Origin: Hymenobacter aquaticus
Lineage (GTDB): Bacteria; Bacteroidota; Bacteroidia; Cytophagales; Hymenobacteraceae
DNA: 64,000 bases
Direction: 5' to 3'
Assembly: GCF_004765605.1 (NCBI RefSeq)
Contig: NZ_SRLC01000001.1
Location: 2,790,001 to 2,854,000, forward strand
The number at the start of each line of letters is the position of its first letter. Within the stretch, counting starts at the first letter, position 1. Of this stretch, positions 30,801-61,558 are shown piece by piece. A program made the position numbers and the translations under genes. The notes beneath the pieces were generated by a model. The model did not search any database. It had not been told where the DNA came from and worked only from the letters and a program-made list of their open reading frames with translations.

Positions 30801-31570
30801 CGCTGCCGCTCCAGGCCGAAGCCCGTCACCACCACTTCCGACAGGGTTTTGGCATCCGGGGCCAGAGCCACGGCCAGCGTCGTCTGGCTGCCAATCTCCA
30901 CTTCCTGCGCCGTAAACCCAATGTAGCTGAACACCAGCGTGGTAGCACCCTCGGGCACCTCCAGCGTGAAAAAGCCCTCCGCATTGGTTGCCGTCCCGAC
31001 CGTGGTGCCTTTCACCACCACGTTCACGCCGGGCAGCGGGCCGCTGCCGTCGCGGGCCGTTACGGTGCCGCTCACGGTGCGCGCCGCCGCGGCCGGCCGG
31101 CGCAGCACCGGGGCCGGCGTGCCCGACAGCGCCACCAGGCTGCCGTTGGTGGGCGTCGGCAGTCCTGCCGCCGACGTATCAGTCCGGCGGGCGGTCAGGA
31201 TAATCTGCTGCCCGACAATGCGGTATTCCATGCCCAAGGGACGCAGCACCTGGTCGAGGGCCGTTTCCAGGGGCACGTTGGTCAGGTTGATGGTCTGGCG
31301 CCGGCGCTTGTCGAGGCGGTTGTCGCTGTAGATGAACACGTAGCTGCTCTGGCGCTCGATTTCGCGTAGCAGGTACGTCACGTCTTTGTCTTTGGCCTTG
31401 AGCGTGATGGTAGCGGCGGTGGCCCCGCTGGAGGCCGCCTGCAGCTGGGCACTATTGCCGGCCGACAGGTTGGCCAGCAGCAGAGAGCTGGCTACCAGCA
31501 GCGCCTTGCCGGCGGTGCGGGTGGTGGGGTTGCAGCGAAAAGCAAATTCCGGGAGTAGCCTTAGATTCAT
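27881..31570 (-). CDS. SusC/RagA-type TonB-dependent transporter with STN signalling domain
   Basis: A 1229-residue outer-membrane transporter from the ATG at 31568-31570. After the signal peptide (about 1-45) there is an STN domain at about 55-130 (DKDVTYLLREIERQSSYVF, VPLETALDQVL), a CarbopepD_reg_2 domain at about 170-250 (GPLPGVNVVVKGTTVGTATN), a plug (LSGKLAGVQINRNGSGP, RPLVVVDGVPIDN) and a beta barrel ending in LGYNLNLEF. The STN domain, together with FecR and sigma genes just upstream, indicates trans-envelope signalling in which substrate binding activates the sigma factor. It forms a pair with the SusD downstream. Confidence 0.95.
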   Translation of the reverse strand: MNLRLLPEFAFRCNPTTRTAGKALLVASSLLLANLSAGNSAQLQAASSGATAATITLKAKDKDVTYLLREIERQSSYVFIYSDNRLDKRRRQTINLTNVPLETALDQVLRPLGMEYRIVGQQIILTARRTDTSAAGLPTPTNGSLVALSGTPAPVLRRPAAAARTVSGTVTARDGSGPLPGVNVVVKGTTVGTATNAEGFFTLEVPEGATTLVFSYIGFTAQEVEIGSQTTLAVALAPDAKTLSEVVVTGFGLERQRKSLGYSVQDVKAAEIVVAREPNIINSLSGKLAGVQINRNGSGPAGSTNIIIRGYTSLTRDSRPLVVVDGVPIDNTNLQQASRLGGFDSGDGLSTINPEDIESISVLKGGNAAALYGNRAANGVLIVTTKKGRKNQGLGVSLNSNTTFDRVQVLTDYQNEYGQGTQGRFLSNTAGQPILTADGFPQIQQAGENIGSWGPRMEGQLARHWTGEIKPYSPQPDNIRDFFETGYTTSNTVALTGGTDKSTLRVSLSDLRNKGTYPNSSLVRDNVTLRGTTSLGDKLSVDTKLNYTLSRTYNRPTLGASPDNVMTQFLYMPRSVYIDDLRDYRDPVTLQPRLWNLNTQLGAGVLASGTQRQNPFWAAYLNTNEVSQDRVNGSVAIRYDILPWLWLQVRGGTDFYTSRSGYRYASWTSWNTTAVPDRGGLSESTFRVKETNMDFILSGTRNLSEDFELTAQAFGNLLQRSNEQAGASTQGLSVPNLFTIDNGAARVPIYNFSRSEVQSLFGRAQLSFRNAVFLEATGRNDWDSTLPRGNWSYFYPSTSLAVSYTDLLKLDSKVLSLGKLRASWARVGKGASAYELTTLYDLGSGIANAPGVGSSHLGQPFANLQDQLPTINLKPQTTRSIEFGSEMRFFKDRAGLDLTVYRTNTFNQVTSIGVTAASGFRSQLINAGDIQNQGLEIVGLVTPVKLENGFRWDMTANWAKNQSKVVALNEGGVSYFLGNESNNVSVVAAVGKPFGDIFGTVLQRAPDGRLLVDANGFPLASTSNNNKLGNFQPDWFGGLSNTFSYKGLSLSVLLDARWGGQIYSVSQQVASVRGNAKQTLEGRQGWYESEAARLAAGATPANWTPTGGVYVEGVVKNADGSFTPKAGFVNPESYWARLATVSEPFVYDATFVKLREVALGYRLPTALLSKAKFIRGASFSIVGRNLAFLRRDTQGFDPESGYNLSRAQGLESGGYPNSRSLGYNLNLEF

Positions 31571-31645
31571 GTGCGGGAATTGGCGGGGAGGTGGGAAGCA
31601 AAAAAAAAGAACACACCTAGCCCGCACGCAGGCCACGGCATGTCA

Positions 31646-32758
31646 TCAGATAGTGAGAGGCTTTAGAGACTCAGGGGTTTCGGCGTCGCAGCCCAGGCCC
31701 TTAATCAGTAGCGTACTGTTTTGAAGCTCAAAATCGAAGGCACGGGTCATTTCAATCAGGCGCAGCACTTCGCGCAACGACTGATCCTTGAAGCGGCCGG
31801 TGAGACGGCAGTTGCGCAGCCGCTCGTCCTCGAAGCGCACGGTCACGTTGTACTGCCGCTCCAGGGTCTTGGCTACTTCCGCCAGCGGCGTGGCCTGGAA
31901 GATTAGCGAGCGTTGGTTCCAGGAGGCGTAGTCGCGGCCATTGACCTGCTCTACGCGCAGCTCGTGGCTGGCTTTGGAATACACCACCTTCTGATCCGGC
32001 ACTACATAGATGGTGTCGCGCGCGGCGGCGGCCGGCAGGGCCGCCCGGATAAAGGCCACGCGGCCCGTCACGACGGCCGTTTCCACGGCGTCGTCTTCCT
32101 TATAGGCTTTCACATTGAAGGACGTGCCCAGTACGCGCACCTCGTGGGTACCCACATGGATAATGAAGGGCATCTGCTCGTTGCGCTTCACGTCGAAAAA
32201 GGCCTCCCCTTCCAGGTATACCTCGCGCCGCGCGCCACTGAACGTGGCCGGAAACGAGAGCCGGCTATCAGCGTTCAGCCACACGGCCGTGCCATCGGCC
32301 AGCAGCACCTTGGACTTGGTACCGCGCGGGTTGGTGCGCTCCTCGTAGCTGAGCGGCGCCAGGCCGCTAGGCTGCGCCAGATACTGCCGGTAGGCCACCG
32401 TGCCGCCCGTAGCCAGCACGGCTACCGAAGCGGCGGCCAGCCACAGGCGCCGCCACCGCGCCGGACGCGGCAGGGCTACTACCCTGCCACCGGTTTCGTC
32501 GGCTTCGGCAGCCTCACCAGCCAGGGCGGGTTGTTCCGCCTCGTCGATGCGGGCCAGCAGGCGGTCAAAGGCCCGGGCCGTGTCGGCGGGGTTGGCCACG
32601 GGCTTGGGCCCCTGCCAGAACAGCCTGATTTCGTCGTAAACGAGGCGCTCCTCTTCCGTGGCCTGGGCCAGCCAGGCGTGCAACACTTCGCGCTCCACCT
32701 CAGAGAGTTCTCCGGCGAGTTCTTTCCCGATAAGATCGTATAGTTCGGAAATCTCCAT
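31646..32758 (-). CDS. FecR-family anti-sigma factor
   Basis: A 370-residue inner-membrane regulator. The N-terminal cytoplasmic helices (YDLIGKELAGELSEVEREVL) bind the sigma factor; a membrane helix lies at about 105-125 (LWLAAASVAVLATGGTVAY). The periplasmic part has the FecR domain (ERTNPRGTKSKVLLADG, VWLNADSRLSFPATF) and a C-terminal DUF4974 domain (TPLAEVAKTLERQYNVTVRF), which contacts the SusC STN domain. It starts 167 bp after the sigma factor gene, and a strong hairpin terminator lies between them. It precedes the SusC gene by 75 bp. Confidence 0.95.
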   Translation of the reverse strand: MEISELYDLIGKELAGELSEVEREVLHAWLAQATEEERLVYDEIRLFWQGPKPVANPADTARAFDRLLARIDEAEQPALAGEAAEADETGGRVVALPRPARWRRLWLAAASVAVLATGGTVAYRQYLAQPSGLAPLSYEERTNPRGTKSKVLLADGTAVWLNADSRLSFPATFSGARREVYLEGEAFFDVKRNEQMPFIIHVGTHEVRVLGTSFNVKAYKEDDAVETAVVTGRVAFIRAALPAAAARDTIYVVPDQKVVYSKASHELRVEQVNGRDYASWNQRSLIFQATPLAEVAKTLERQYNVTVRFEDERLRNCRLTGRFKDQSLREVLRLIEMTRAFDFELQNSTLLIKGLGCDAETPESLKPLTI

Positions 32759-32864
32759 CCCCTATTTACAGCTCAAATGACGTGTTTGATTTTCTAGACA
32801 TGGGTGCGGCCCATATCCCCTAACTTCCCCGTAAAATTAGGCTGCTGCCGGACACCCGGACAGC

Positions 32865-32892
32865 AAAAAGGCGCGACCGGGGCCGCGCCTTG
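32865..32892 (-). terminator. Terminator between sigma and anti-sigma genes
   Basis: On the minus strand AAGGCGCGGCCCCGG pairs with CGCGCCTT and runs into TTTTT. It lies 34 bp after the sigma stop and 107 bp before the FecR start, so sigma transcription may end or be attenuated here. Confidence 0.75.
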
Positions 32893-32925
32893 GCAAAGGC
32901 TGACAAGTAGATTGCTCCAACTTCT

Positions 32926-33561
32926 TTAGCCGGCCGCTCCGGCCAGCAGCAGCGGAATCAGGGCCTGGGCGATGCGCAGCACGCGCGGCGGTGCCTGTCG
33001 GGCCGCGAGGTGGGCCTGCAGATCTACGCTGATTTTCTTGATGGCAATGCCGATCTGCACCTCAATGGTTTTGGTGGAAATCCCCAGTATCTCGGCTACT
33101 TCCTTGTATTTGAGGCCATCTTCGCGGATCAGCTTGAAGATGATCTTGCACTGCGGCGGCAGCTTGTCTACGGCCCGATGAATCTCGGCCTGCAGCTCGG
33201 ATACCAGTAGCGTACGCTCCGGCGTGAGGGTTTCTACGCTCAAGTAAGCCGGCAGATCTTCCAGCGGAATGGCAGGCTGGTTTTCCGCTTTCTGCAGGTA
33301 GTTCAGCGACTGATTTTTGATGGAAATGTAGAGGTAGCTGTCCATGTTCTTCACCTCCGGCAGCGTGGCCCGCTTCTGCCACAGCTTGAAAAACACATCC
33401 GACACCACCTCTTCCGCCAGCTCCCGCGACTTGACGTAGAACTGCGCGAATTTCAGCAGCCGTGGGTAGTACAGGGTGAAGAACTGCTCGAATGCCCGCC
33501 GGTCGTCGGCGGTGGCAATGCGGTGGAGAAGCAGAGCGGTGGACGGGTGGGAAGAATCCAT
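32926..33561 (-). CDS. ECF-type RNA polymerase sigma-70 factor
   Basis: A 211-residue ECF sigma factor. Region 2 is at about 25-95 (YYPRLLKFAQFYVKSRELAE, VVSDVFFKLWQKRA, DSYLYISIKNQSLNYL) and region 4 at about 135-190 (PPQCKIIFKLIREDGLKYKE, VAEILGISTKTIEVQIGIAI), with the usual DNA-recognition helix. It directs polymerase to the PUL promoters when released by the FecR protein. The C terminus adds a short hydrophobic LIPLLLAGAAG tail, unusual for the class. It heads the minus-strand PUL. Confidence 0.95.
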   Translation of the reverse strand: MDSSHPSTALLLHRIATADDRRAFEQFFTLYYPRLLKFAQFYVKSRELAEEVVSDVFFKLWQKRATLPEVKNMDSYLYISIKNQSLNYLQKAENQPAIPLEDLPAYLSVETLTPERTLLVSELQAEIHRAVDKLPPQCKIIFKLIREDGLKYKEVAEILGISTKTIEVQIGIAIKKISVDLQAHLAARQAPPRVLRIAQALIPLLLAGAAG

Positions 33562-49201: not shown

Positions 49202-49296
49202 AGTAGCCGTTGTTATTTATGGATTATAGAAGAGTCGGAGAAGCAGCGTTTGGGCAACTGGCGCGGCTCCGACGGGCGCGTGCAACGCGCCCCTAC
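49163..49296. repeat. Inverted pair of GCGCGTTGCACGCGCC palindromes
   Basis: Copies at 49163-49190 and 49270-49296 are inverted relative to each other and differ by one mismatch and one indel over 27 bp. Each is itself a near-palindrome (GGGCGCGTGCAACGCGCCC type). One lies inside the start of the CE12 gene ending at 49201, the other spans the stop of the CE12 gene at 49293. Confidence 0.7.
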
Positions 49297-50078
49297 CGGG
49301 CCTGGGCGTCGACGGTCTTCTTGACTTCGCGCTTCACAATCCGGTCGGCCAGCTCCAGCTGGAGGGTGCGGATGTCGGCCAGCACGAGCTGGGCCATCTT
49401 GCGGGCGCCTAGCTCGCTGAAGTGAGTGTTGTCGTCGCGGCCGGCGGGGTAGTTGGGGTGCTCGTTCGGGGCCAGGTGGTTGAAGAGCAGCTTGGAGGCT
49501 TCGGGGCCGAACTGCTGGAGCAAAGCCAGGCTTTCGGCGTCCAGGTCAATCAGGGCCACTTTCTGCTCCTGGGCCACGCTGCGCACGAGGCCGGCGTACA
49601 CGGCGTGGGTTTCCTCCACTTTGCCGGCCGCGTCGAACTTGCGGCGGGCGACGGGCGTGAGCAGCACGGGCGTGGCTTTCCGGGCCCGGGTTTCGGTGAC
49701 GAAGCGCACGAGGTTGGCCCGGAAGTCGGCCTCGGGCGTGTAGTTGGCCTTGGTGGGCACCTCGTCGTTGTGGCCGAACTGGATGAAGACGTAGTCGCCG
49801 GGCCGCAGGGCGGCGGCCACGGGCTGCCAGCGGCTTTCGGCCAAAAACGACTTGGTGCTGCGCCCGTTCATGGCCCGGTTGTCGACGGTGACGGTTTCGT
49901 CGAAAAAGTACCGGAAGGGCATGCCCCAGCCGGTTTCGGGAAAGGCCTTTTCTTCCTTGTTGGCCATCGTGGAGTCGCCGATGAGGTAGACCTTGATGGC
50001 CGCGGGTGGGGCGCCGGTAAAGGCCAGCAGCGCGAGCAAGCAAACGGCTGCCACGGTGGTAAAAAGACGATGGGCCAT
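49293..50078 (-). CDS. Rhamnogalacturonan acetylesterase (CE12), second copy
   Basis: A 261-residue exported SGNH esterase, paralogous to 48374-49201. Signal peptide at 1-24 (CLLALLAFTGAPP overlaps the cleavage zone). Blocks are YLIGDSTMANKEEKAFPETG, NRAMNGRSTKSF, IQFGHNDEVPTKAN and DDNTHFSELGARKMA. It heads the run of four esterase genes and is preceded, 150 bp upstream, by a CAAACG operator-like site (50229-50246). The two CE12 copies share more than the family motifs, including TGAPP after the signal, which suggests a local duplication. Confidence 0.93.
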   Translation of the reverse strand: MAHRLFTTVAAVCLLALLAFTGAPPAAIKVYLIGDSTMANKEEKAFPETGWGMPFRYFFDETVTVDNRAMNGRSTKSFLAESRWQPVAAALRPGDYVFIQFGHNDEVPTKANYTPEADFRANLVRFVTETRARKATPVLLTPVARRKFDAAGKVEETHAVYAGLVRSVAQEQKVALIDLDAESLALLQQFGPEASKLLFNHLAPNEHPNYPAGRDDNTHFSELGARKMAQLVLADIRTLQLELADRIVKREVKKTVDAQAR

Positions 50079-50228
50079 ACGGGTAGGCGAAGGGTAGAAC
50101 GGAGTTTGCCACGCTTCCCGCCCGAGGTTGCCGGCCGCTTAAGCCCGCTGGTCCCGGCAACGCGGTACGCGTAGCAGCAAGTAAGGCCTATTTGCGGCCG
50201 GAAAGGCCGTTAAAGAGGAGAATAGTTG

Positions 50229-50246
50229 CGCAAACGTTGCCGGGAA
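50229..50246. promoter_or_regulatory. LacI-type operator-like site upstream of the CE12/CE8 run
   Basis: Reads GCGCAAACGTTGCCGGGA. The central CAAACGTTG fits the near-palindromic CG-centred operators of LacI-family regulators and resembles four other sites in the pectin region. Confidence 0.5.
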
Positions 50247-50266
50247 CGATGCCGAATGAGGGCATC

Positions 50267-50371
50267 AGAACGTCATGTCGAGCCTTGCGAGACATCTCGC
50301 GTGCTGATGTTGCCACGGTAATCATATACCATTGCACGCGAGATGTCTCACTCTGTTCGACATGACGTTCT
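50267..50371. repeat. Long palindromic intergenic repeat, family A second copy
   Basis: Arms at 50267-50303 and 50334-50371. The outer 15 bp (AGAACGTCATGTCGA) and inner 16 bp (GAGACATCTCGCGTGC) are perfect inverted matches, with a 7-bp mismatched bulge between. Related to 943-1035. It lies between the SSS gene terminator and the operator-like site; the 386-bp gap 50079-50464 holds nothing else recognisable. Confidence 0.85.
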
Positions 50372-50393
50372 ATATTATTACCACAAACGCTAC

Positions 50394-50429
50394 AAAAAAG
50401 GCGGCTACACCGTGGTGCAGCCGCCTTTC
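50394..50429 (-). terminator. Terminator after the SSS symporter
   Basis: On the minus strand AAAGGCGGCT pairs with AGCCGCCTTT, with an inner CACC/GGTG stem, then TTTT. Confidence 0.9.
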
Positions 50430-50464
50430 TCGTATCAATAAGAAGCTTCTCTCCTACTGGGAGC

Positions 50465-52150
50465 TTACCAGTAAATGGTGTACAGCGCCGTTAGAATCAC
50501 GGCAATGACCATGGCACCGATGGTGAAGCTGCGCTGGGGCTTGAACATGCTGGCGTCGACTTCCAGGCCGTTGGTTTTGGTGCCGCGGCTGGTTTCGAGC
50601 AGGCTGATGATGACCATCACGATGACGCAGATGACGAACACGAAGCCCATCCGGTCGAGGAAGGGAATTTCGTAGACGCCGGCCTCACTTTTCACCGCGA
50701 AGCCCAGCGGGGCCAGGAACGACAGATCTACCAGGCCGGGCAGGAACTTGAACATGATGGAAAGCAAAAAGCCGCCGATGGTGGCAAACAGGGCCGCGTT
50801 GGAAGTCGTTTTCTTCCAGAAGAAGCCCAGGATGAACATGGCGAAGATGCCCGGCGACACGAAGCCGGTGTACTCCTGAATGTACTGGAAGCCGCCCTTC
50901 TTGTCGATGCCCAGGTGGGGCGCAATGAGCACGCCCAGAATCATGGCCACGACCACGGCAATCTTGCCTACCACTACGAGCTTCTTCTCCGAAGCTTCCG
51001 TGTTCAGCACTTTCTTGTAGATGTCGAGGGTGAAGATGGTGGCAATGGAGTTGGCCTTGCCGGCCAGGGAGGCCACCACGGCGGCCGTGAGAGCGGCAAA
51101 CGACAGGCCTTTCAGACCCGTGGGCAGAATGTTGAGCAGTACCGGGTAGGCGCGGTCGGGGTTCAGATCAGCGCCTGACCCAAACTCGGCGGCCCCGAAC
51201 ACGTCCTGCTTGTAGAGCACGTAGGCGGCAATGCCGGGCAGCACCACAATGACGGGCATGAGCAGCTTTAGAAAGGCCGCAAACAAGATACCCGAGCGGG
51301 CCGTGGGCAAATCAGCACCGAGGGCGCGCTGGGTGATGTACTGGTTGCAGCCCCAGTAGTTCAGGTTCACAATCCACATGCCGCCGAGCAGCACCGTGAG
51401 GCCCGGCAGATCGATGAAGTTGGGGTTGTCCTGTTGGAAAATCATCTGGAAGTGGTCGGCGGCCTGGTCCTGCATCAGCTTGAAGCCGCTGATAACGCCC
51501 GATTGGCCGTAGTGGTCGGCCACCATGTCGAGAGCCAGGTAGGTGGTAGCCAGGCCGCCCAGAATCAGGAAGAACACCTGGATTACGTCGGTGAAGCCGA
51601 TAACCTTCATGCCGCCCAGCGTAATAATGACAGCAAATATGGCCAGAGCGTAGAGGCAGAACGTGAGGTTGAGGCCGGCAATGCTGCTGATGGCAATGGC
51701 CCCGAGGTAGAGAATCGAGGTCAGGTTGACTACCACGTAGAGCATCAGCCAGAAAATGGCCATAATCATAGCCACCGTGCCGTTGTAGCGCTGGTTCAGA
51801 AACTGCGGCATCGTGAAGATGTGGTTCTTCAGATACACCGGAATAAAGAACACGGCCACGATAATCAGCGTCAGGGCCGCCATCCATTCGTAGGTCGCAA
51901 TGGCCAGGCCCATCTTGAAGCCCGAGCCCGACATACCCACGAACTGCTCGGCCGAAATGTTGGAGGCAATGAGCGAGGAGCCGATGGCCCACCAGGTCAG
52001 GGAGCCTTCGGCCAGGAAGTAATCTTTGGAGTCGCCCTCGATGGTACCGTCGTGGCCGGTCTTGCGGCGGTAAATCCAGATGCCGTACCCTGACACAATC
52101 AGGAAGTAGACAAAGAAGACAATGTAATCTAGAGTGGCGAGTTGGTTCAT
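50465..52150 (-). CDS. Sodium:solute symporter (SSS/SGLT family)
   Basis: A 561-residue inner-membrane symporter with about 14 helices. SSS features: LDYIVFFVYFLIVSGYG at the start, WWAIGSSLIASNISAEQFVG, GLNLTFCLYALAIFAVIIT, NYWGCNQYITQRALGA (SGLT-type signature), SLAGKANSIATIFTLDIY and a C-terminal helix after FKPQRSF. The length and motifs match vSGLT-like sugar transporters. In this context it likely imports galacturonate or pectin-derived oligosaccharides. A CAAACG-type site lies 172 bp upstream of the start. Confidence 0.93.
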   Translation of the reverse strand: MNQLATLDYIVFFVYFLIVSGYGIWIYRRKTGHDGTIEGDSKDYFLAEGSLTWWAIGSSLIASNISAEQFVGMSGSGFKMGLAIATYEWMAALTLIIVAVFFIPVYLKNHIFTMPQFLNQRYNGTVAMIMAIFWLMLYVVVNLTSILYLGAIAISSIAGLNLTFCLYALAIFAVIITLGGMKVIGFTDVIQVFFLILGGLATTYLALDMVADHYGQSGVISGFKLMQDQAADHFQMIFQQDNPNFIDLPGLTVLLGGMWIVNLNYWGCNQYITQRALGADLPTARSGILFAAFLKLLMPVIVVLPGIAAYVLYKQDVFGAAEFGSGADLNPDRAYPVLLNILPTGLKGLSFAALTAAVVASLAGKANSIATIFTLDIYKKVLNTEASEKKLVVVGKIAVVVAMILGVLIAPHLGIDKKGGFQYIQEYTGFVSPGIFAMFILGFFWKKTTSNAALFATIGGFLLSIMFKFLPGLVDLSFLAPLGFAVKSEAGVYEIPFLDRMGFVFVICVIVMVIISLLETSRGTKTNGLEVDASMFKPQRSFTIGAMVIAVILTALYTIYW

Positions 52151-52319
52151 TTAAAAACGGTGAAAGAGTAGAAAGTACCGGCAGAAAGCAGCGCTGCCGC
52201 AGCAGTACCGCCGCAAAGGCTGGCTAAAGCTAAGTTTATGCGTTCTGAGTTGCACGCTTGTAATCCTAAATAAAGCGTTTAATCCCGGCTTTAACCCTCC
52301 TGTACTGTCACGTAAACTA

Positions 52320-52335
52320 CCGCAACCGTTTGCAT
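52320..52335. promoter_or_regulatory. LacI-type operator-like site upstream of the SSS symporter
   Basis: Plus strand ACCGCAACCGTTTGCA; read on the minus strand TGCAAACGGTTGCGGT. GCAACCGTTTGC at 52322-52333 is nearly palindromic and matches the CAAACG core of the other sites. The rest of the 239-bp gap 52151-52389 shows no gene. Confidence 0.5.
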
Positions 52336-52389
52336 AGACCCCGCTTTTCCGGCCGGCCCCACCAGCCGCGAACCGCTGCGGCAGCGTCC

Positions 52390-54384
52390 TCAGGGAGTCG
52401 GCAGGACTGAGAGGCGCGCCGGCCCCAGCGCGGCGGCCAGCTCGGGCAGGTCGTAGGAGCGCAGCACGCCCGGCACCACGAGCGAGTAGCCGTCCTTGGC
52501 CGTGGGCTGCTCCAGCTGCTGCTGAAACGACTTGGGCCCCGCTCCCACCCACACGTTGGCAATAACTGGGGCCAACACGGCTGCGTGCAAGGCCACGGGC
52601 ACGGCCCGGCCGGTGGCGTACAGCGCCACGGGTGCCGCGCGCAGCCGCGGCTCCTGCCCGATGAAGCCCAGCGCCATGAATACGTCGACGACCCGCTGGC
52701 CCAGCAGCGGCTGGCCCACGTGCAGGGCCAGCAGGGCGTTGCGGTACTCGCGGTTGTAATACTTCTTGTCGTTGAGCGGCTCGGGGTCCGTCGTCTCGCC
52801 CAGGCCGCGCAGGTCGGGGAGCAGCACGGCGTAGTTCTGGCGTAAGTACCCGGTGAGCAGCGCGGTGCTGTCGGCCAGGGTGCGCTTGCCCCGCTCGGGC
52901 AGCCACAGCACTACCTTCGTCACGGGCGCGTCGCCGGCGGGCAAGGCCAGCAGGGCGGGCAGCGGCACCTGGCCGGCGCGCCGGATGATGAGCTTGCGCA
53001 GCGGCACCTGGTCTTTGTTAAGTACGGTTTCCTTCCACTCCACCGCCACGGGCGCGTCGAGCGGGGCGGGCAGGCGCAGCTGGCGGCGGATAAGCGCCGG
53101 CAGATCTTTCGCCCCGCCGCTCTTGTTGCGCTGCCGGCTTAGCTCCCGGGCCCGCTCCAGGTTGCGCTGCGGAATAGTCAACTCGTCGTTGAAGGCCGTC
53201 GTCACCTGCCCGGTGCGGGTGCACCACAGCTGCTCGGGCTGCAGCGTGGCCAGGTTGCCTTCCCGCACGGGCTGGTTGTCGTCGTAGAGCCAGCGCCGAA
53301 ACCACTGCACGGCCGCCTCGCGCTTGGGCTGGGAGATGCCGTGGCCGTCGTCGTAGGTAAACAGGCTGACGCGGCCCGCCGGCCCGAAGCCCTGGTACAC
53401 CTGCCGCACCTGCGCGTAGGCATCCTGCACTAGGCCGTAATCCACGAAATCGAAGCGCCCGGCCAGCAGCTGCATGGGCCGGGGCGCAAACATAATGGGC
53501 CAGTCGGCCACGTCGAGGCCCACCCGGCCGGCGTCGGGAATTTGCACGCAGCCGTCGGCGGGGCCGGTCAGCTCCAGCACCCGCTCCCCGCTGGCCACGT
53601 AGCTGCAGAGCGCGGCCACCTGCACCCGGTCGTCGTAGCCGATGAAGTAGGCCGTTTGGGTGGCCCCGCCCGAGTTGCCCAGCGCCCCGATGCGGGCGGC
53701 ATCCACTTCGGGACGGGTCAGCAGGTAGTCGAGGCCGCGCACGTTGTCCCAGAGCTCATCGGCCACGCTGCTGGTGCCCACCAGCGCCGATTCGGCGTTG
53801 AGCAGGGTGTGCTCGGTGGTGCCGCCCCGGGTCAGGGGCTTGCCCGTGCCGTCGGTCAGCTGGTACCGCTCCCCCTGCGAAATAGGGTCGATAACGAACA
53901 CCACAAACCCATTTTTGGCGAACAGGATGGCCGTTTTCTGGTACGACTCGGTGGCTTTCGACTCGGCCTCGTGCCCGCAAAACAGCAGCACGCCCGGCAG
54001 CCGGCCGTTGCGCTCCTTGGGCACGTAGAGGTTGGCCGTAACGTGGTGCCGGGGCGTGCTTTCGTACACCACTTTTTCGATGCGGTATCCGTCGCGGGCC
54101 AGCTGGCCCGTCACCCGCGCCTTCAGGGGCGTGCGGGCCGGCAAGGGCCCCAACACCCGGCGGTAGCGGGCCCGCACACTGTCGCGGTAGGCCCGCACCC
54201 CGGCTTCCGACTGCACCGCCCGGGCCAGCTCGGTGCGGCGGCCGGCGTACTGGTCGCGCATCTGTTGCACCAGGGCGGTGTTCAACGACACGTTGGCTTT
54301 CCAGTCGAGCACGTCGTAGGGTTTCTGGGCCCGGGCTCCGTAGGCACCCAGCACGCCCAGTACCAGTAGCAGCAGGTTTTTCAT
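52390..54384 (-). CDS. Exported two-domain alpha/beta hydrolase, acetylesterase-like
   Basis: A 664-residue protein with a signal peptide (residues 1-19, ending GAYGARA). The first alpha/beta hydrolase domain (about 90-370) has the nucleophile elbow IGALGNSGGATQT, an oxyanion-side LLFCGHEAESK, LAGRFDFVDYG (acid) and TYDDGHGISQ (His), resembling acetyl xylan esterase/cephalosporin deacetylase-type enzymes. The second domain (about 430-664) keeps the fold (KVVLWLPERG, YAVLLPDLRGLGET) but its elbow reads LYATGRAVPV, so the Ser nucleophile is absent. It probably removes acetyl or other acyl groups from pectin side chains. A stop 18 codons earlier rules out a longer useful start. Confidence 0.85.
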   Translation of the reverse strand: MKNLLLLVLGVLGAYGARAQKPYDVLDWKANVSLNTALVQQMRDQYAGRRTELARAVQSEAGVRAYRDSVRARYRRVLGPLPARTPLKARVTGQLARDGYRIEKVVYESTPRHHVTANLYVPKERNGRLPGVLLFCGHEAESKATESYQKTAILFAKNGFVVFVIDPISQGERYQLTDGTGKPLTRGGTTEHTLLNAESALVGTSSVADELWDNVRGLDYLLTRPEVDAARIGALGNSGGATQTAYFIGYDDRVQVAALCSYVASGERVLELTGPADGCVQIPDAGRVGLDVADWPIMFAPRPMQLLAGRFDFVDYGLVQDAYAQVRQVYQGFGPAGRVSLFTYDDGHGISQPKREAAVQWFRRWLYDDNQPVREGNLATLQPEQLWCTRTGQVTTAFNDELTIPQRNLERARELSRQRNKSGGAKDLPALIRRQLRLPAPLDAPVAVEWKETVLNKDQVPLRKLIIRRAGQVPLPALLALPAGDAPVTKVVLWLPERGKRTLADSTALLTGYLRQNYAVLLPDLRGLGETTDPEPLNDKKYYNREYRNALLALHVGQPLLGQRVVDVFMALGFIGQEPRLRAAPVALYATGRAVPVALHAAVLAPVIANVWVGAGPKSFQQQLEQPTAKDGYSLVVPGVLRSYDLPELAAALGPARLSVLPTP

Positions 54385-54433
54385 GTAAATCAGTAACAAG
54401 CACCACGGCGGACAGCCGGGCGGAAGCTCCCAC

Positions 54434-54474
54434 AAAAAAGCCCGGACAGCAACGATGCGGCCCAGGCTTTTTGC
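54434..54474 (-). terminator. Terminator after uxaB
   Basis: On the minus strand AAAAAGCCTGG pairs with CCGGGCTTTTTT across a 20-nt partly paired loop. Confidence 0.7.
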
Positions 54475-54489
54475 GTGGCAGCTGGTTGG

Positions 54490-56010
54490 TTAAGCCGATA
54501 CCTGCGCGGTCAGATGACTGGCCACGGTGGCATACACGCCCTGGTCGAGCATGGCTTGCAGGTGGCTGCTCACCTGGGCCGCGAAGCCCGGCAGCGTGGT
54601 CAGGTCGTGGCCCCAGAGGGTAGAGTTGCGCAGCACGGTAGTGGTCAGCTCGGCCGCGTCGAGGCGCTGCCAGAGGTCGGCGAAGTAGGCGGCCTTTTCA
54701 TCCTGAATCGGGTAGGTCTGGCCGTTCAGCTCGCCGTACCAGGTGTGGTCCTGCTCCTGGGTGCCGCGCATAAACAGCAGGTAGCCCGCGAAGCCCAGCG
54801 CCGCGCAGGCCGGCACCCGCTGGTACCGCTCGACGTAGCCGAGCAGCGTGGCCACGTTGCGCAGCTGGAGCTTGGCCGAGTAGTTGAGCGTGATGCCCAG
54901 CCAGCGGTGCTCGATGTAGGGGTTGCGGAACCGGTCGAGCACCTGCCGGCCAAACTCGCGCGACACGTCTTCCGGCACCGGATACGGAATGCCTCGGCGC
55001 AGATTATCCTGCATCAGACTGGAGATAAAGGCGCCCAGCACTTCGTCTTCCATGGCGGCCCGCACCGTGTCGAAACCGGCCAGGTAGGCCAGGCCGCAGC
55101 TGAGCGTGTGCGTGCCGTTGAGCATGCGCAGCTTCAGCTCCCGAAACTGGTTGATGTCGGGCTGCACGACCACGCCGGCGTCGGCCTGCTCGAACGACAG
55201 TACCCGGCGCACCTTCTCGTCGCCCTCAATGGCCCAGAGCCGGTACACTTCCGACATCGTGAGCAGGTCGTCGTTGTAGCCCAGCTCGGCTTCCAGCGCC
55301 GCCTGCAGGGCCGCGGCGGGCCGGCCGGGCACGATGCGGTCCACCAGGGAGTTGCAGCAGGTGTTGGCCGTTTCGAGCCAGTCGATGAACTCGGCTTCGA
55401 GGCCGTTGCGGTGGGCCAGCTCCAGCAGAATGGCTTCGAGCTTGGCGCCGTTTTCCGGAATCAGCTCGGTGGGCACAATCACCAGGCCCTTGGCCGGGTC
55501 GCCCTGAAACGCCTGGTAGCGGGCGTAGAGCACGGCCAGCAGCTTGCCCGGAAACGACTGGGGCGGACTGGTGCGGATGTCGTCGGCGACCAGCTGAATG
55601 CCGACCTCGGTGGTATTGGAAATCACCACGGCCAGGTCGGGGCTCTGGGCGCAGCGCAGCACCTCGGCCCACTGGCTTTTGGCCGACAGCACCCGGCTGA
55701 TAGCCGAGCACACCACGTTTTCCTCGACCTGCTGCCCGTCCTCAATGCCGCGGATGCAGAGCGTATACAGCCCATCCTGGCGCGTGAAGGCCGTGATATC
55801 GCCCCCGTCGGTGGACTTCACCACCACGATGCGGCCGTTGAAGACGCCCTGGCGGTTGGCCTTGTCGATGAGGTAGTCGGGCAGGCCGCGCAGCAGCACG
55901 CCGGTGCCGAATTGCAGCACTTTCTCGGGCAGCGCCAGGTGGGCGGCGGCGGGCAGGGCCACGGTGGCGGAACTGAGCTGGGCCAGGGTATTGGTAGATA
56001 GTTCTTTCAT
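54490..56010 (-). CDS. uxaB: Tagaturonate reductase (altronate oxidoreductase)
   Basis: A 506-residue NAD-dependent mannitol-dehydrogenase-type enzyme. KVLQFGTGVLLRGLPDYLID is the N-terminal nucleotide-binding block, VVISNTTEVGI and PTELIPENG follow, and LKLRMLNGTHTLSCGLAYLA holds the catalytic Lys/Asn/His region. It reduces D-tagaturonate to D-altronate in galacturonate catabolism in the cytoplasm. The start MKELSTNTL at 56008-56010 is preferred over an open extension of 28 codons. Its leader (56011-56170) holds two operator-like sites. uxaA and uxaC are not in the window. Confidence 0.93.
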   Translation of the reverse strand: MKELSTNTLAQLSSATVALPAAAHLALPEKVLQFGTGVLLRGLPDYLIDKANRQGVFNGRIVVVKSTDGGDITAFTRQDGLYTLCIRGIEDGQQVEENVVCSAISRVLSAKSQWAEVLRCAQSPDLAVVISNTTEVGIQLVADDIRTSPPQSFPGKLLAVLYARYQAFQGDPAKGLVIVPTELIPENGAKLEAILLELAHRNGLEAEFIDWLETANTCCNSLVDRIVPGRPAAALQAALEAELGYNDDLLTMSEVYRLWAIEGDEKVRRVLSFEQADAGVVVQPDINQFRELKLRMLNGTHTLSCGLAYLAGFDTVRAAMEDEVLGAFISSLMQDNLRRGIPYPVPEDVSREFGRQVLDRFRNPYIEHRWLGITLNYSAKLQLRNVATLLGYVERYQRVPACAALGFAGYLLFMRGTQEQDHTWYGELNGQTYPIQDEKAAYFADLWQRLDAAELTTTVLRNSTLWGHDLTTLPGFAAQVSSHLQAMLDQGVYATVASHLTAQVSA

Positions 56011-56087
56011 GATCAGCGGATCATCTAAACGGTGTTGCTCCTTCTCTCCTAATCTGCGTGTGGGCGACGTCAGCCCGTAGCGGGCAG

Positions 56088-56104
56088 CAACCAAACGTCC
56101 CCGG
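56088..56104. promoter_or_regulatory. Operator-like site 1 upstream of uxaB
   Basis: Reads GCAACCAAACGTCCCCG, with the CAAACG core followed by CCCCGG as in the site at 61533. It lies 78 bp before the uxaB start. Confidence 0.4.
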
Positions 56105-56134
56105 CGCGAGCCTCCTGAGCGAGGCCGCGGCCGA

Positions 56135-56151
56135 GGACAAACGGTTGCTTG
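56135..56151. promoter_or_regulatory. Operator-like site 2 upstream of uxaB
   Basis: Reads GGACAAACGGTTGCTTG. Its CAAACGGTTGC is identical to the minus-strand reading of the site at 52320-52335. It lies 125 bp before the uxaB start and 20 bp below the SusD stop codon. Confidence 0.5.
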
Positions 56152-56170
56152 TCAGCCGGGGGCGGCCGGC

Positions 56171-57958
56171 TTAGTTGTAGCCGGCGTTTTGCTTCAGCTT
56201 GTTGTTCGTGTTCAGCGAGGTAGCCGGAATGGGCAGCAGCTGGTGGGTCGGAATGTAGCCGGAAGCAATGTCCGCAATGCGGTTTTCACTGATAGCCGAG
56301 CGCCAGGCCACGGCCGTAGCCCCGGCGGGAGTCGTAGCCGGGGCGGGCCGGTAGAGCGAGCGAACAAACCTGATCTGGCCGTTGGTCACGGTGTAGTAGG
56401 CCGTCAGCGGAATGTTGGCGTAAGGGCTGGCGGGCGTCTTGTCGGCCATCCAGGCCCGCAGCGTGGCCTTCACGGCATCGAGCTTGGGCCCGAGCAGGTT
56501 CCAGCGGATCAGGTCGTACTTGCGGACACCTTCGCCACCGAACTCCAGGAAACGCTCGTTCTGCAAAAAGGCGAAGAAGCCGTCTTTATCGGTCGGGGGC
56601 GTTTTGGCGGCGGCGGCGTTGCCTTTGAAGCCGCGCAGGCGCACTTCCATCAGGGCCTGAGAGGCCGAAAAGCCCTTGAACGTCGCCGTGGGGCCGGCCA
56701 ATTCGTTTTGCGCCTCCGCAAACATCAGCAGCACGTCGGCGAAGCGGATCAGGGGCCAGTTGTAGCCCAGGCTTTGCACCGAAGCCCCCGACACCAGCGG
56801 GCTGCGCCAGTCGCGGCGGAACTTGCCGTCGTAGATGGTAATCAGGTTGGTAGCCTTCTGCGCGTCGTTCGACTCGATGGTGTAGGGCGCCAGCGTTACG
56901 TCGCGGCGGGCGTCGAGCGAATCGAAGGCGTAGAAGTAGGTGGGCAGGGCCGTAATGGCCCCGCTCGAGGCCCCGTACTTGGGCGAGGCGTTGATGCGGG
57001 GGCCGTTGTAATAGCCCAGCTTGCTGTCGGACAGCGCGCTGGCTCCGCCCATGCCCACTTCAAACATGATTTCGCGGTTGGCGTCGCGGCGCAGCTCATT
57101 GATGCTGCGGAAGGTTTCCTCGTAGCTCGAGTTCAGGTTGTGCTGGCCGCGGTTAATCATCAGCTCCTGGCACTCCACGCGCACCGTGTCGTAGAACTGG
57201 CGGTAGTCGGGGGCCCGCTCTACGACTCCCTGCGGGTTCATCGAGTAGCCGGCGCGGTAGAGGGCCACGCGGGCCCGCAGGGCTTTCACGGCTCCTTTGG
57301 TGATGCGCTCATCCGAGGAGGCAATGGCCGTGCGCCACGGCACAATCTTGGCCGCCTCGTCGAGGTCGGCCAGCAGCCGGTCGTAGATCTTGAAGCGGTT
57401 TTCGCGCGGAATGTTGAAATCCTGACCCGTCACCGAGGGCTCAAACTGCGCGGGCACATCGCCCCAGTTGCGGATCAGCTCGAAGTAGTACTGGGCGCGC
57501 AGGGTGAGGGCCTCGCCGTAGAGGCGCTTGACGGCCACCATGTCGGCACCGCTCTGAAACTGCGGCATCTGCGGAATATTCTTGATGCAGATGTTGGCGC
57601 GCTCAATGCCCTGGTAGAGCGTGTTCCAGGGGTTTTGCACGTCGGCGTTGGTGGCCACCGACGCGTAGCGGGCAATGCCGCGGCGGCCGGTGCCGGCGTC
57701 GTTGCCACCCTGGCTGCTCTGCATCTCATCCGAGTCGAAGGGGAAGAAGCTGCTCAGGCGGTTGCCGTAGCCGGCGTCGCCCGAGAGCGGGTCGTAGGCG
57801 CCCATCACGGCGCTGGTGGCCCCGCTGACGGTGCTGAACACCTGCTCGGTGGTATCAAACGAGTTCGGCTCGATTTCCAGGAAATCTTTGCAGGACATGA
57901 CACCGGCCAGACAGACGATGCCAAAAGCGGCTATGGTAGGACGAAGGATGCGTTTCAT
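56171..57958 (-). CDS. SusD/RagB-family nutrient-binding lipoprotein, pectin PUL
   Basis: A 595-residue outer-membrane lipoprotein from the ATG at 57956-57958. Lipobox LAGVMSC places the Cys at about residue 23, followed by KDFLEIEPNSFDTTEQVF, a canonical SusD opening. Later blocks are RANICIKNIPQMPQFQ, YGEALTLRAQYYFELIRNWG, WPLIRFADVLLMFAEAQNEL and FLEFGGEGVRKYDLIRWNLL, all typical of the large SusD group. It binds glycan at the surface and pairs with the SusC encoded 21 bp upstream. In this neighbourhood the ligand is probably a pectic oligosaccharide. Confidence 0.95.
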   Translation of the reverse strand: MKRILRPTIAAFGIVCLAGVMSCKDFLEIEPNSFDTTEQVFSTVSGATSAVMGAYDPLSGDAGYGNRLSSFFPFDSDEMQSSQGGNDAGTGRRGIARYASVATNADVQNPWNTLYQGIERANICIKNIPQMPQFQSGADMVAVKRLYGEALTLRAQYYFELIRNWGDVPAQFEPSVTGQDFNIPRENRFKIYDRLLADLDEAAKIVPWRTAIASSDERITKGAVKALRARVALYRAGYSMNPQGVVERAPDYRQFYDTVRVECQELMINRGQHNLNSSYEETFRSINELRRDANREIMFEVGMGGASALSDSKLGYYNGPRINASPKYGASSGAITALPTYFYAFDSLDARRDVTLAPYTIESNDAQKATNLITIYDGKFRRDWRSPLVSGASVQSLGYNWPLIRFADVLLMFAEAQNELAGPTATFKGFSASQALMEVRLRGFKGNAAAAKTPPTDKDGFFAFLQNERFLEFGGEGVRKYDLIRWNLLGPKLDAVKATLRAWMADKTPASPYANIPLTAYYTVTNGQIRFVRSLYRPAPATTPAGATAVAWRSAISENRIADIASGYIPTHQLLPIPATSLNTNNKLKQNAGYN

Positions 57959-57979
57959 CGTGGGAATCCGTTGCAACAA

Positions 57980-60900
57980 TTAGAGGGAGAGGTTGACCCC
58001 GAACAGCAGGGCGCGGCTGCGGGGGTAGGCCGCGTAGTCGACGCCGGGCGTCAGAGGCGTACCACGGCGGGTGTTTACCTCGGGGTCGAAGCCGGTGTAC
58101 TTGGTGAAGGTGTAGAGGTTGTTACCCGTCACGTAGAAGCGCACCTGGGTCAGCTTGGCGTACGCCGAAATCGTCTTGGGCAGCGTGTAGCCGAGGGTCA
58201 CGTTGTTCACGCGCAGGAACGAGCCGTCTTCAATGGCCCACGAGTGGGGAAACAGCTGGCGGGTCGGGGTCCAGATCTTGGCGTTCTGGTTGAGGCGGCG
58301 CGAGGTTTCCAGGTCGGTAATCACGGCGCCGTTTTCGTCGATGGTGCGGTACCGGTCGTTCATGATGGCCAGGCCGTTGCTCAGGTAGGAGTTGGCCAGG
58401 TTCGAGGTCAGCTCAATCTTGTTGGCGTTGTAGACGTCGTTGCCGTACACGAAGTTCAGGAAGATGCTGGCGTCGAAACCTTTGTAGGTAAACTGCTGGT
58501 TTAAGCCCCCCGAGAATTTGGGGTTGGCGTTGCCAATCACCGTGCGGTCAGCCTCGTTTACCGTGCCGTCGCCGTTCACGTCCTTCAGCTTGAGCGTACC
58601 CGGAATTACTTCCTCGTTGGCACCGCTGTAGCCTACTACGCCCCGGTCCGAAACGACGCCGGGCTTCAGGTTCCACTTGCCGTTGCTGTAGCCTTCGAAG
58701 TCGTCGGCGGTGTAGAAGCCGTCGGTGACGTAGCCGTACATCAGGCCCACGGGCTGGCCCACGGCCACGTAGTAGTCGGCGGTGATGGCCGTGCTGGCCC
58801 AGCCCGAGTATTGCAGCGGGAAGGGGTTCGGGCCGAGGTCTTCCACCCGGTTGCGGTTCAGCGCCACGTTGGCGTTAGCCGTCCAGGAGAAGTCCGGGGT
58901 CTGGAACACGGTACCGGTTGCCTGCAGCTCCAGCCCCCGGTTGGAGGTAGCGCCGATGTTCACCAGCTGCGAGGTATAGCCCGAAGTCGGCGCGATGGCC
59001 AGGTTCAGGAGCAGGTCGCGGGTGCGGTTCGAGTAGGCGTCAATGGTCAGCTGCACGCGGTTGCTGAACAGGCTGATGTCCAGGCCCAGGTTGCGCGACA
59101 CGGTGGTTTCCCACTTCAGATTTTCGTTGAACAAGGAGTTCACCACGGCGCCGGGCACCAGGGTTTCGCCCAGGGCATACTGGCCCGTGGTGCGGAAAGC
59201 GGCGCGGTACAGGTTATCCTGAATCCGGTTGTTGCCGGCCAGGCCGTAGCTCAAGCGCAGCTTCAGATCGGAAACCGTGTTGGTGAAGGGCTTCATGAAC
59301 TCTTCCTGCGAAATGCGCCAGGCGGCCGAAGCAGCCGGGAAGAAGCCCCAGCGGCTGTTGATGCCGGGCGCGAACTTCGACGAGCCGTCGGCGCGGAACG
59401 TGGCCGTCAGCAGGTACTTGTCGTCGAAGGAGTAGTTTACGCGGCCAAAGCCCGAGAGCAGCCGCGACTTAATGGGCTGGTCGGTGGTCGGGGCCGGCTG
59501 GGGCGTCGCGGGGGCGTTGGGGTCGCGCTGGTTGATGTTGTTGAAGGCCTTTTCGTAGCCGATGGTCAGCGGCAGGTAGTAGCTCACCACGTTCTGGGTG
59601 TTAAACTCCTGCAGGTAGATTTCGTGGCCGGCCAGGGCGTCAAACGAGTGCTTGCCCTTGTTGAAGTTGTAGCTCAGCACGTTCGAGTTGTTGAACGTAA
59701 TCTGGGAGCCGGTGCCAATGCCCAGAAACGGCAGGCCCGAGAAGTTGGCGCCTTTGATAACGGGCGAAAACTGCCCGTTGAAGGTTTCGACGCGGGTGTT
59801 GGTGTTGTCGAAACCAAGGGTGGTACGGAAGGCCAGGGCCTTGGTGAAGTTGTACTGCGCGTTGCCCCCCAGGTTGAACAGGCGGCGCTTGTCGGCGCGG
59901 TACTCGTTCTGAATCGTCAGCACCGGGTTCGACAACGAGCCCGAGGTGCGGAAAAACTCGTCGTCTTCCAGGTTTTCGTTGGGGTCGATGGCGCCGGGGC
60001 GCACCAGGGCCAGGGGCTGATACACGATGGTGTTGCGCAGCCGGGTGTTGGTCGTGGAGCCCGTGCCTTGGTTCGAAGTGCCCGAGCCCTGCACGGTCTG
60101 GTCGTTGAAGCGGGTGCTGAGGCCAAACTTGAACTTGTCGTTGGCTTTGTGGTCGAAGCGGAAGTTGATCAGGTTGCGGGTAAAGCCCGACTCAATCTGG
60201 ATGCCGTCTTCCTGGTTGCGGGTCAAGCTCAGCGAGAAGGTCGAGCCTTTGCCGCCACCCGACAGCGTTACGTTGTGGGTCTGCTGGAAAGCGTCGCGGC
60301 CGAATACTTTGTCCTGCCAGTCGATGAACTCGGCGCTGCGGGCCCGGCCCAGCGTGTCGTAGCCGAAGATGTCGTTGCCGTTGGCATCCTTGCCCACGGG
60401 CTGGGAGTAGTCGCGCGTGTCGCGGAAATTGGTCGAGCCGAAGCGGCTTTTGATGGTGCTCAAACCGGCGCTGCCGGCCAGGGCGGCCTTTTCGTACACG
60501 TAATCCACGTACTCGTTGGGCTTCATCACGTCGAGCGTCTTGGCAATGCGTCGCACGCCGGCAAAGCCGTTGTAGGTCACGCTCAGCTTGCCTTCCCGGC
60601 CACCTTTGGTCGTAATAATAACCACGCCGTTGGCGCCGCGGGCCCCGTAGATAGCCGTGGCCGAAGCGTCTTTCAGCACGTCAACCGAGGCAATATCCTG
60701 GGGTGAAAGCACCGACAGGGCGTTTTCCAGCTGCACGCCGTCCACGATGTAGAGCGGCGAGTTGTCCTGGGTAATCGAGCCGCCGCCCCGCACCCGGATG
60801 CGGATGTCGGAGCCGGGCTGGCCTTCCGAGGAAGTAACCTGCACGCCGGCCAGACGGCCGGTCAGGGCCTCCGCGGCCGAGTTTACCGGCACGTCCTTGA

Positions 60901-61297
60901 TTTGCTTGGCGCCCACCGAGGCCACCGAGCCGGTTACGTCCTTGCGGGGCACCTCGGCGTAGCCAATCACGACGACGTCCTCCATTACCTTGGTATCGGG
61001 GCTGAGCTGGATGCTGACGTTGCTCTGGCTGCCGCTAACCGGCACGTCCTTCGAGAGAAAGCCGATGTAGCTCAGGCGCAGCACCACGTCGCCGGCGTTG
61101 GCGGGCAGCGCGATGCTGAACTTGCCATCCATGTCGGTGGAGGCGCCGGTGGTGGTTCCCTTCACCACGACTGTTACGCCGGGCAGGGGCTCGTCTTTTT
61201 CAGTAGATCGAACGACGCCCTGAATGCTGCGCTGCTGGGCCACCGCGTGCAGGGCCACGCTGAGCAGGAGCCAGACAAACAGTATGTACTTTCTCAT
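57980..61297 (-). CDS. SusC/RagA-type TonB-dependent transporter, pectin PUL
   Basis: A 1105-residue outer-membrane transporter. Signal peptide at 1-20 (LLLSVALHAVA), CarbopepD_reg_2 domain at about 23-105 (SIQGVVRSTEKDEPLPGV, STDMDGKFSIALPANAGD), plug at about 115-225 (AAEALTGRLAGVQVTSSEGQ, SPLYIVDGVQLENALSVLSP, ATAIYGARGANGVVIITTKG), then the 22-strand barrel ending LLFGVNLSL. It has no STN domain, unlike the SusC of the first PUL, so it is not expected to signal through an ECF sigma factor. That agrees with the LacI-type operator-like sites found upstream. Confidence 0.96.
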   Translation of the reverse strand: MRKYILFVWLLLSVALHAVAQQRSIQGVVRSTEKDEPLPGVTVVVKGTTTGASTDMDGKFSIALPANAGDVVLRLSYIGFLSKDVPVSGSQSNVSIQLSPDTKVMEDVVVIGYAEVPRKDVTGSVASVGAKQIKDVPVNSAAEALTGRLAGVQVTSSEGQPGSDIRIRVRGGGSITQDNSPLYIVDGVQLENALSVLSPQDIASVDVLKDASATAIYGARGANGVVIITTKGGREGKLSVTYNGFAGVRRIAKTLDVMKPNEYVDYVYEKAALAGSAGLSTIKSRFGSTNFRDTRDYSQPVGKDANGNDIFGYDTLGRARSAEFIDWQDKVFGRDAFQQTHNVTLSGGGKGSTFSLSLTRNQEDGIQIESGFTRNLINFRFDHKANDKFKFGLSTRFNDQTVQGSGTSNQGTGSTTNTRLRNTIVYQPLALVRPGAIDPNENLEDDEFFRTSGSLSNPVLTIQNEYRADKRRLFNLGGNAQYNFTKALAFRTTLGFDNTNTRVETFNGQFSPVIKGANFSGLPFLGIGTGSQITFNNSNVLSYNFNKGKHSFDALAGHEIYLQEFNTQNVVSYYLPLTIGYEKAFNNINQRDPNAPATPQPAPTTDQPIKSRLLSGFGRVNYSFDDKYLLTATFRADGSSKFAPGINSRWGFFPAASAAWRISQEEFMKPFTNTVSDLKLRLSYGLAGNNRIQDNLYRAAFRTTGQYALGETLVPGAVVNSLFNENLKWETTVSRNLGLDISLFSNRVQLTIDAYSNRTRDLLLNLAIAPTSGYTSQLVNIGATSNRGLELQATGTVFQTPDFSWTANANVALNRNRVEDLGPNPFPLQYSGWASTAITADYYVAVGQPVGLMYGYVTDGFYTADDFEGYSNGKWNLKPGVVSDRGVVGYSGANEEVIPGTLKLKDVNGDGTVNEADRTVIGNANPKFSGGLNQQFTYKGFDASIFLNFVYGNDVYNANKIELTSNLANSYLSNGLAIMNDRYRTIDENGAVITDLETSRRLNQNAKIWTPTRQLFPHSWAIEDGSFLRVNNVTLGYTLPKTISAYAKLTQVRFYVTGNNLYTFTKYTGFDPEVNTRRGTPLTPGVDYAAYPRSRALLFGVNLSL

Positions 61298-61532
61298 TGG
61301 AATGGTGTGTGGGAATTGAAAAATGACTGCGAAAAGACTGGCCGCTTCTGCTTTACCGCCGGGTGTGGAGGGACTTACCGGGGTGGCAGCCAGGCTGCCG
61401 GAACAGACGGGAATCGTTTTTTTGTACTCTCACCCGTTGGCGCGGCCAAATTTGTACTGTTAGCCGATTCATCGGTTCTATAAGTTTACACTAACCCCCG
61501 CCAATAGCGAAGCAATAGCGGGTTTTTATTTG

Positions 61533-61558
61533 TGCAAACGTTCCCGGCAACGTTGCCG
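61533..61558. promoter_or_regulatory. Tandem LacI-type operator-like site upstream of SusC
   Basis: GTGCAAACGTTCCC is followed directly by CGGCAACGTTGCCG (61545-61558), a perfect 14-bp palindrome with a central CG. It lies 236 bp before the SusC start. This is the strongest of five similar sites in the pectin region. Confidence 0.6.

Follow-up and report, generated by a model that had tools for sequence, protein, structure and literature searches.

Putative operator sites of the pectin gene cluster

The window analysed here is a 64,000-nt stretch of the Hymenobacter aquaticus genome (G000:C1:2790001-2854000; 5.5 Mb in four contigs, hereafter the source genome) that carries a gene cluster for pectin use. 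An initial annotation of this stretch had proposed that five sites with a CAAACG core form one LacI-type operator. All five strings were present at the reported positions (50229, 52320, 56088, 56135 and 61533), as was a perfect CG-centred 14-bp palindrome at 61545-61558, one of two such palindromes in the window. Only the sites before susC and before a GDSL esterase gene were found to share one motif, a 24-bp putative operator that recurs before pectin genes elsewhere in the source genome. The gene names agreed as far as they were compared (GDSL esterase, SSS symporter, tagaturonate reductase and SusC), and pectinesterases and GDSL esterases are also among the genes surrounding the sites. The genes and sites concerned are as follows.

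49293..50078, minus strand: GDSL-like esterase gene (CE12 in the initial annotation), Pfam Lipase_GDSL_2
50178..50184, minus strand: weak -7-like sequence TTACTTG at +46 for the GDSL esterase gene; the best TANNYTT matches lie instead at +40 and +57
50230..50253, minus strand: operator before the GDSL (CE12-type) esterase gene
50465..52150, minus strand: SSS-family symporter gene, Pfam SSF
52314..52331, minus strand: sister element AAACGGTTGCGGTAGTTT before the symporter gene (reported site 52320)
54490..56010, minus strand: tagaturonate reductase gene (uxaB-type), NCBIfam NF002969, 585.6 bits against a cut-off of 359
56088..56150, no strand assigned: reported sites 56088 and 56135, unsupported
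56171..57979, minus strand: susD gene, Pfam SusD_RagB
57980..61297, minus strand: susC gene, no STN domain reported, Pfam and TIGR04056
61482..61488, minus strand: predicted -7-like element TAAACTT at +46 for susC, with a predicted transcription start near 61476
61525..61531, minus strand: A/T tract at +3 to +9 from the operator end, 7 of 7 A/T
61534..61557, minus strand: operator before susC, reading towards susC

A scoring matrix was trained on eight sites of the source genome, all outside the window. The operators at 61534 and 50230 ranked first and second in the window with scores of 36.6 and 32.2, the highest unrelated position scored 11.6, and a search with the 24-bp pattern at up to three mismatches returned these two positions alone, against a mean of 0.00 in 100 shuffles. 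The best scores near the other reported sites were -0.3 at 52320 (rank 243), 0.5 at 56088 (rank 186) and -7.0 at 56135 (rank 1727), and a single matrix for all five sites was rejected because these three misfit the matrix trained outside the window. The sites at 56088 and 56135 were discarded as operators altogether, given their background-level scores and the absence of wider conservation: likeness to 56088 is restricted to the two closest relatives, and 56135 has a conserved counterpart in none of seven aligned cases. By contrast, the operator before susC was found in 21 of 30 orthologous loci, and the esterase site occupies the same place in the source genome and its five closest relatives (loci L089-L094).

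The operator, with a consensus of approximately GCAAWCGTTNYCGGSAACGTTGCC, is a 24-bp pseudo-palindrome composed of two CG-centred 12-bp boxes whose centres are 12 bp apart. Loci retrieved by protein supplied 85 sites selected on their 16 inner columns only; of these, 84 keep the outer base G1 and 84 keep C24, and a TTTATT flank is present on one side only. This is the arrangement of a tandem LacI operator, two CG-centred boxes at 12-bp spacing with both conserved. As both boxes are equally conserved and the sister element has a single box, one protein dimer per 12-bp box, and thus two dimers per operator, is most likely.

The sister element explains the reported site at 52320; a reading of that site as a degenerate pectin operator was rejected in view of its matrix score and its fit to a separate element. 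AAACGKTTNCGGTADTTT is matched without mismatch at three positions of the source genome and no more: before the SSS symporter gene, before an FGGY kinase gene that is followed by a xylose-isomerase-like gene, and before uxuA-GH67, whose divergent neighbour is a second LacI gene, P0002. With two mismatches at most, the pattern occurred in 9 places against 8 for the control, so that only the exact three stand out. The block containing the element aligns in all six genomes compared, the source genome and its five closest relatives, and a loose box pattern, in the form of one box, paired boxes or boxes set apart, lies upstream of the symporter gene in 14 of 30 loci, with none in the remaining 16. 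The 52320 element is thus assigned to a xylan/glucuronate type, and control of that kind probably applies to the symporter, either as well or in place of pectin control. P0002 itself (L021:6314-7453) has an N-terminal stretch resembling the zinc-binding part of IS256/IS1-type transposases, with E-values of 4.9e-6 and 1.4e-4 that are below the curated cut-offs.

The Pfam scan reported no STN domain in the SusC of the pectin cluster, as the initial annotation had it. A second SusC in the window (27881-33561), in contrast, carries an STN domain and adjoins FecR and an ECF sigma factor. The statement that the window holds no regulator gene therefore applies to the LacI family, of which no member was found among 29 scanned open reading frames of the window, and not to that ECF sigma factor and FecR. 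Repeats were also observed near the operators. An inverted repeat with 38-nt arms lies beside the 50230 operator (50267-50371) and belongs to a dispersed family, its 115-bp stretch having 79 matches in the source genome when both strands of many palindromic copies are counted. The susC leader region (61421-61466) contains two 16-bp direct repeats, 81% alike and 30 bp apart.

The putative pectin regulon and the LacI-family gene P0001

The genome-wide scan suggested in the initial annotation revealed enrichment before pectin genes. With up to three mismatches, GNNAACGTTNCCGGNAACGTTNNC matched 22 places in the source genome, compared with 3 for the reversed pattern, and the gene surroundings were inspected for 18 of the 22. 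These comprised 13 intergenic operators, two matches in predicted genes, one just before a CpsB gene and two of the sister type; the coding-region matches (C2:184501 and C1:819298) and the CpsB match (C2:865847) were taken as chance. Ten of the 13 intergenic sites adjoin pectin or galacturonate genes, namely GH28-GH88, the lacI/kduD pair, a pectinesterase, a PelZ-like secreted protein, a pectate lyase, a pectate lyase with CBM77, a second PelZ-like protein, a Pel9A-like beta-helix protein, the GDSL esterase and the SusC of the window cluster; the PelZ matches do not reach the NCBIfam cut-off, and the beta-helix match barely exceeds that of Pfam. The other three adjoin a second SusC/SusD, a GFO/IDH oxidoreductase and a protein of unknown role sorted by the type IX secretion system (T9SS). 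Two of the 13 sites lie 2.3 and 2.4 kb beyond the end of the window, between a pectinesterase gene and a PelZ-like gene.

A LacI-family gene near such matches, as the initial annotation had anticipated, was found 2.3 Mb from the window sites and designated P0001 (G000:C1:539590-540609). Its product combines the LacI helix-turn-helix (PF00356, 1.1e-12) with a periplasmic-binding-like sensor domain (PF13377, 6.4e-36). One operator sits between kduD and P0001, and the locus continues with kduI, a cupin gene, a gene for a PL10-pectinesterase protein, a second uxaB-type gene, uxaA, uxaC, and genes for a PfkB kinase, a KDPG-type aldolase and a transporter. A P0001 orthologue (at least 71% identity; next-best match listed, 48%) was present in 83 of 120 Hymenobacter genomes, one of them with two in-frame stops and one partial. 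The operator with its flank occurred in all 83 genomes with an orthologue and in 6 of the 37 others, and the reversed pattern in none of the 120 (Fisher's p = 4.7e-23 on the 83/0/6/31 table, which is not a clean probability, given the relatedness of the genomes and the tie of both features to the pectin genes). In G031 (L363, a one-contig genome), one of the six, the orthologue is broken over three frames and five operator sites are kept, which reflects either an assembly error or a true loss.

An operator was located upstream of lacI in 45 of 53 fetched orthologue loci. The CG-centred palindromic operator is thus found both near the gene of P0001 and near its presumptive targets, the 13 sites of the source genome, as is usual for a LacI-family regulator. 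In some relatives, for example G002, susC is the divergent neighbour of lacI. A change from ST to SV in the recognition helix accompanies the loss of G at operator base 15 (G in 39 of 39 against 1 of 6), and this covariation is perhaps a single evolutionary event. Autoregulation of lacI was not supported, as the site at lacI points to the divergent gene and eight of the 53 loci have no site. Taken together, these observations strongly support a putative LacI-family pectin regulon, and P0001 is the likely regulator binding the two strong sites of the window.

The element extends beyond the genus. An exact scan with GCAAWCGTTNYCGGSAACGWTGCC over one genome per species (84,980 species; about 0.1 matches expected by chance) matched at least 120 stretches, 80 of which were viewed. 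They belonged to Hymenobacter, Dyadobacter, Runella, Spirosoma, Emticicia, Flectobacillus, Larkinella, Fibrella, Fibrivirga, Arcicella, Arsenicibacter and Solirubrum, with unnamed Cytophagales or Hymenobacteraceae bins and one Pseudoflavitalea, and all 82 sites in the 80 stretches were outside predicted genes. Among the best 25 of 57 Pfam families, the 99 neighbour genes included 15 GH28, 14 TonB plug, 9 LacI, 8 short-chain dehydrogenase, 8 GDSL, 7 pectinesterase, 4 pectate lyase and 4 GntR, the last of which hints at a second regulator in some regulons. In 20 further lacI loci, from other families of the order or of lower identity, 13 had an operator scoring above 20 upstream of lacI. In a phylum sample, P0001 was matched in 12 of 345 genomes at E-values up to 1e-90; in another family of the class, at 56-59% identity, the operator lies upstream of lacI at L376, L377 and L379 and on the opposite side of the gene at L378, and further such loci have no operator. 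The operator is, on these predictions, a control element of pectin digestion genes that many soil and plant bacteria, forming a large group, have in common.

Predicted promoter geometry and proposed mode of control

For the analysis of position, 252 distinct sites with all three CG steps and a matrix score above 26 were collected from all loci, and those with similar downstream sequences were merged into 79 clusters; gene starts in the fetched loci were set by a simple script, not by a curated caller. Read towards the gene, the 252 sites are followed by AATAAA at +4 to +9 and by a peak of TAAWYTT at +46. In the 79 clusters, the best -7-like match fell at +45 to +47 with a weight of 21.2, compared with a mean of 2.8 and a maximum of 6.7 in 500 shuffles, TTG occurred at +23 in 12 cases against a mean of 1.6 elsewhere, and A/T content at +3 to +9 was 6.3 of 7, against 3.6 on the other side. 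The 13 promoters of the source genome gave 5.3 weighted matches against 0.74, a value that none of 5000 shuffles reached. The textbook -7 consensus TAnnTTTG, which an extract of PMC9723704 places at -12 to -5 in Flavobacterium psychrophilum, gave a less clear peak than TAnnYTT. On the -7 scale of that extract, the operator would span approximately -81 to -58 relative to the predicted promoter, with its centre at -69.5. Among the sites of other species, 43 have their single adjacent gene on the A/T side and 8 do not; another 24 are flanked by two genes and 7 by none. For five of the eight contrary loci, the fetched stretch ends so close by that a gene on the A/T side was possibly cut off. At L022:9627-9650 a perfect-looking operator has its A/T side away from the pectate lyase gene, and no explanatory plus-strand gene was found there. 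The putative operator is thus directional and rigidly placed with respect to predicted promoter elements, which is new.

A repressor that blocks the polymerase is expected to bind over or after the promoter. The operator ends about 46 bp before the predicted -7-like box and lies, at fixed spacing in the 79 clusters, upstream of the -35/-33 element, as an upstream activator site does; because it occupies this activator-type position, a promoter-blocking repressor is doubtful. The proposal of LacI-type repressor control in the initial annotation accordingly keeps its LacI part, and its repressor part is weakened by the fixed distance and mostly fixed orientation. Given the rigid, directional geometry, direct activation is most likely, and we hold it as first choice with moderate confidence. 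The sequences themselves show the motif, its conservation, direction and spacing, the gene content and the co-occurrence with the regulator gene; binding by P0001, the two dimers, activation and the effector are inferred. P0001 dimers would bind the two adjacent 12-bp boxes upstream of the promoter, followed by the A/T tract, a TTG near -35 to -33 and the -7-like TAAWYTT, and P0001, probably bound to an intermediate of the uronate pathway, would touch RNA polymerase from upstream. That P0001 controls pectin breakdown, uptake and galacturonate/ketodeoxygluconate catabolism through the two strong sites by direct activation appears reasonably probable.

Several points weigh against this reading. 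Repression is the role of most LacI-family proteins that have been studied. Co-occurrence of operator and P0001 is confounded by pectin genes being present, and the eight lacI loci mentioned above have no operator nearby. Five of the 13 source-genome promoters peak elsewhere (GFO/IDH, GH28 with its nearest tie at +44, the T9SS protein, PL1-CBM77 and the GDSL esterase), and the operator at C2:701627 turns its A/T side away from the pectate lyase gene, with a -7-like match that is one of six ties. In addition, the cre of lev lies upstream and yet represses, according to part of PMC3463425.

The lev case, together with the family membership of P0001, favours the same regulator and operator acting by upstream repression, through polymerase contact or looping, with release by a uronate intermediate. 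A precedent is GalR, which represses by contact at gal from about -60. A blocking repressor, however, would not need a spacing and direction that stay fixed with respect to predicted promoter elements in 79 unlike promoters, and we consider this alternative rather unlikely. Binding mainly by a different protein, for instance a paralogue in the LacI family or a regulator of the GntR type, would draw on the seven matches to P0001 in the source genome at E-values up to 1e-60, on the GntR-type genes among operator neighbours in other species, and on five genomes in which the extended operator is present and no P0001 orthologue was found, but it is quite improbable in light of the operator at most lacI loci, its presence in every orthologue-bearing genome, and the recognition-helix change that goes with base 15. 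As for the structure of the site, the 24-bp sequence is an even palindrome with a central CG, like most LacI-family motifs in the portion of PMC4052901 concerned, and could be one long palindrome bound by a single dimer at that CG. The conservation of G1 and C24 in sites chosen without those columns, and the retention of one 12-bp box alone in the sister element, speak for the two-box arrangement, and the single-dimer alternative is unlikely.

More broadly, P0001 could represent a LacI-family activator of a whole polysaccharide-degradation regulon, with two dimers 12 bp apart centred near -69.5 beside an A/T tract with which the alpha subunit of the polymerase could engage, an arrangement kept across Cytophagales and present in some other families of the class; we put this general form at slightly short of an even chance. 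If true, control of SusC/SusD by LacI activators would join that by sigma/anti-sigma and hybrid two-component systems as an additional route. The proposed P0001 regulon would provide a concrete, testable circuit of pectin use for a large group of Bacteroidota, tying SusC/SusD expression to an intracellular uronate signal. The sites also supply many natural examples of a closely spaced LacI double operator, a binding mode described in part of PMC4052901 as hard to reconcile with known structures.

Comparison with known systems

Among the open-licence papers listed by literature searches, none described the operator in its title or the start of its abstract, which does not establish absence from print. 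LacI-family uronate regulators have been predicted in Bacteroides, namely KdgR (BT0487), UxaR (BT0824) and UxuR (BT1434) (PMC3878776, in part), and were placed on one branch of their own (PMC4052901, in part). P0001 resembles them in family and in its link to the glucuronate/galacturonate pathways, whereas the predicted Hymenobacter regulon adds pectin lyases, esterases and a SusC. CcpA of Bacillus subtilis, likewise a LacI/GalR-family protein with an upstream site, activates from cre sites upstream of -35 in a helix-face-dependent manner (PMC3463425, in part). Unlike the P0001 system, CcpA is global and mostly represses, and in the Hymenobacter regulon the upstream position holds for most sites. 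Overlapping LacI-family sites about 13 bp apart were reported at 110 operons, with a binding mode hard to explain (PMC4052901, in the same part), and E. coli GntR at gntKU has two CG-centred sites in similarly close tandem; the Hymenobacter spacing is instead 12 bp, and doubling is the normal form of the regulon. As ECF sigma/anti-sigma and hybrid two-component systems do, the predicted regulator would control a SusC/SusD uptake system, but here the pectin SusC has no STN domain and the regulator would be a soluble LacI-type protein.

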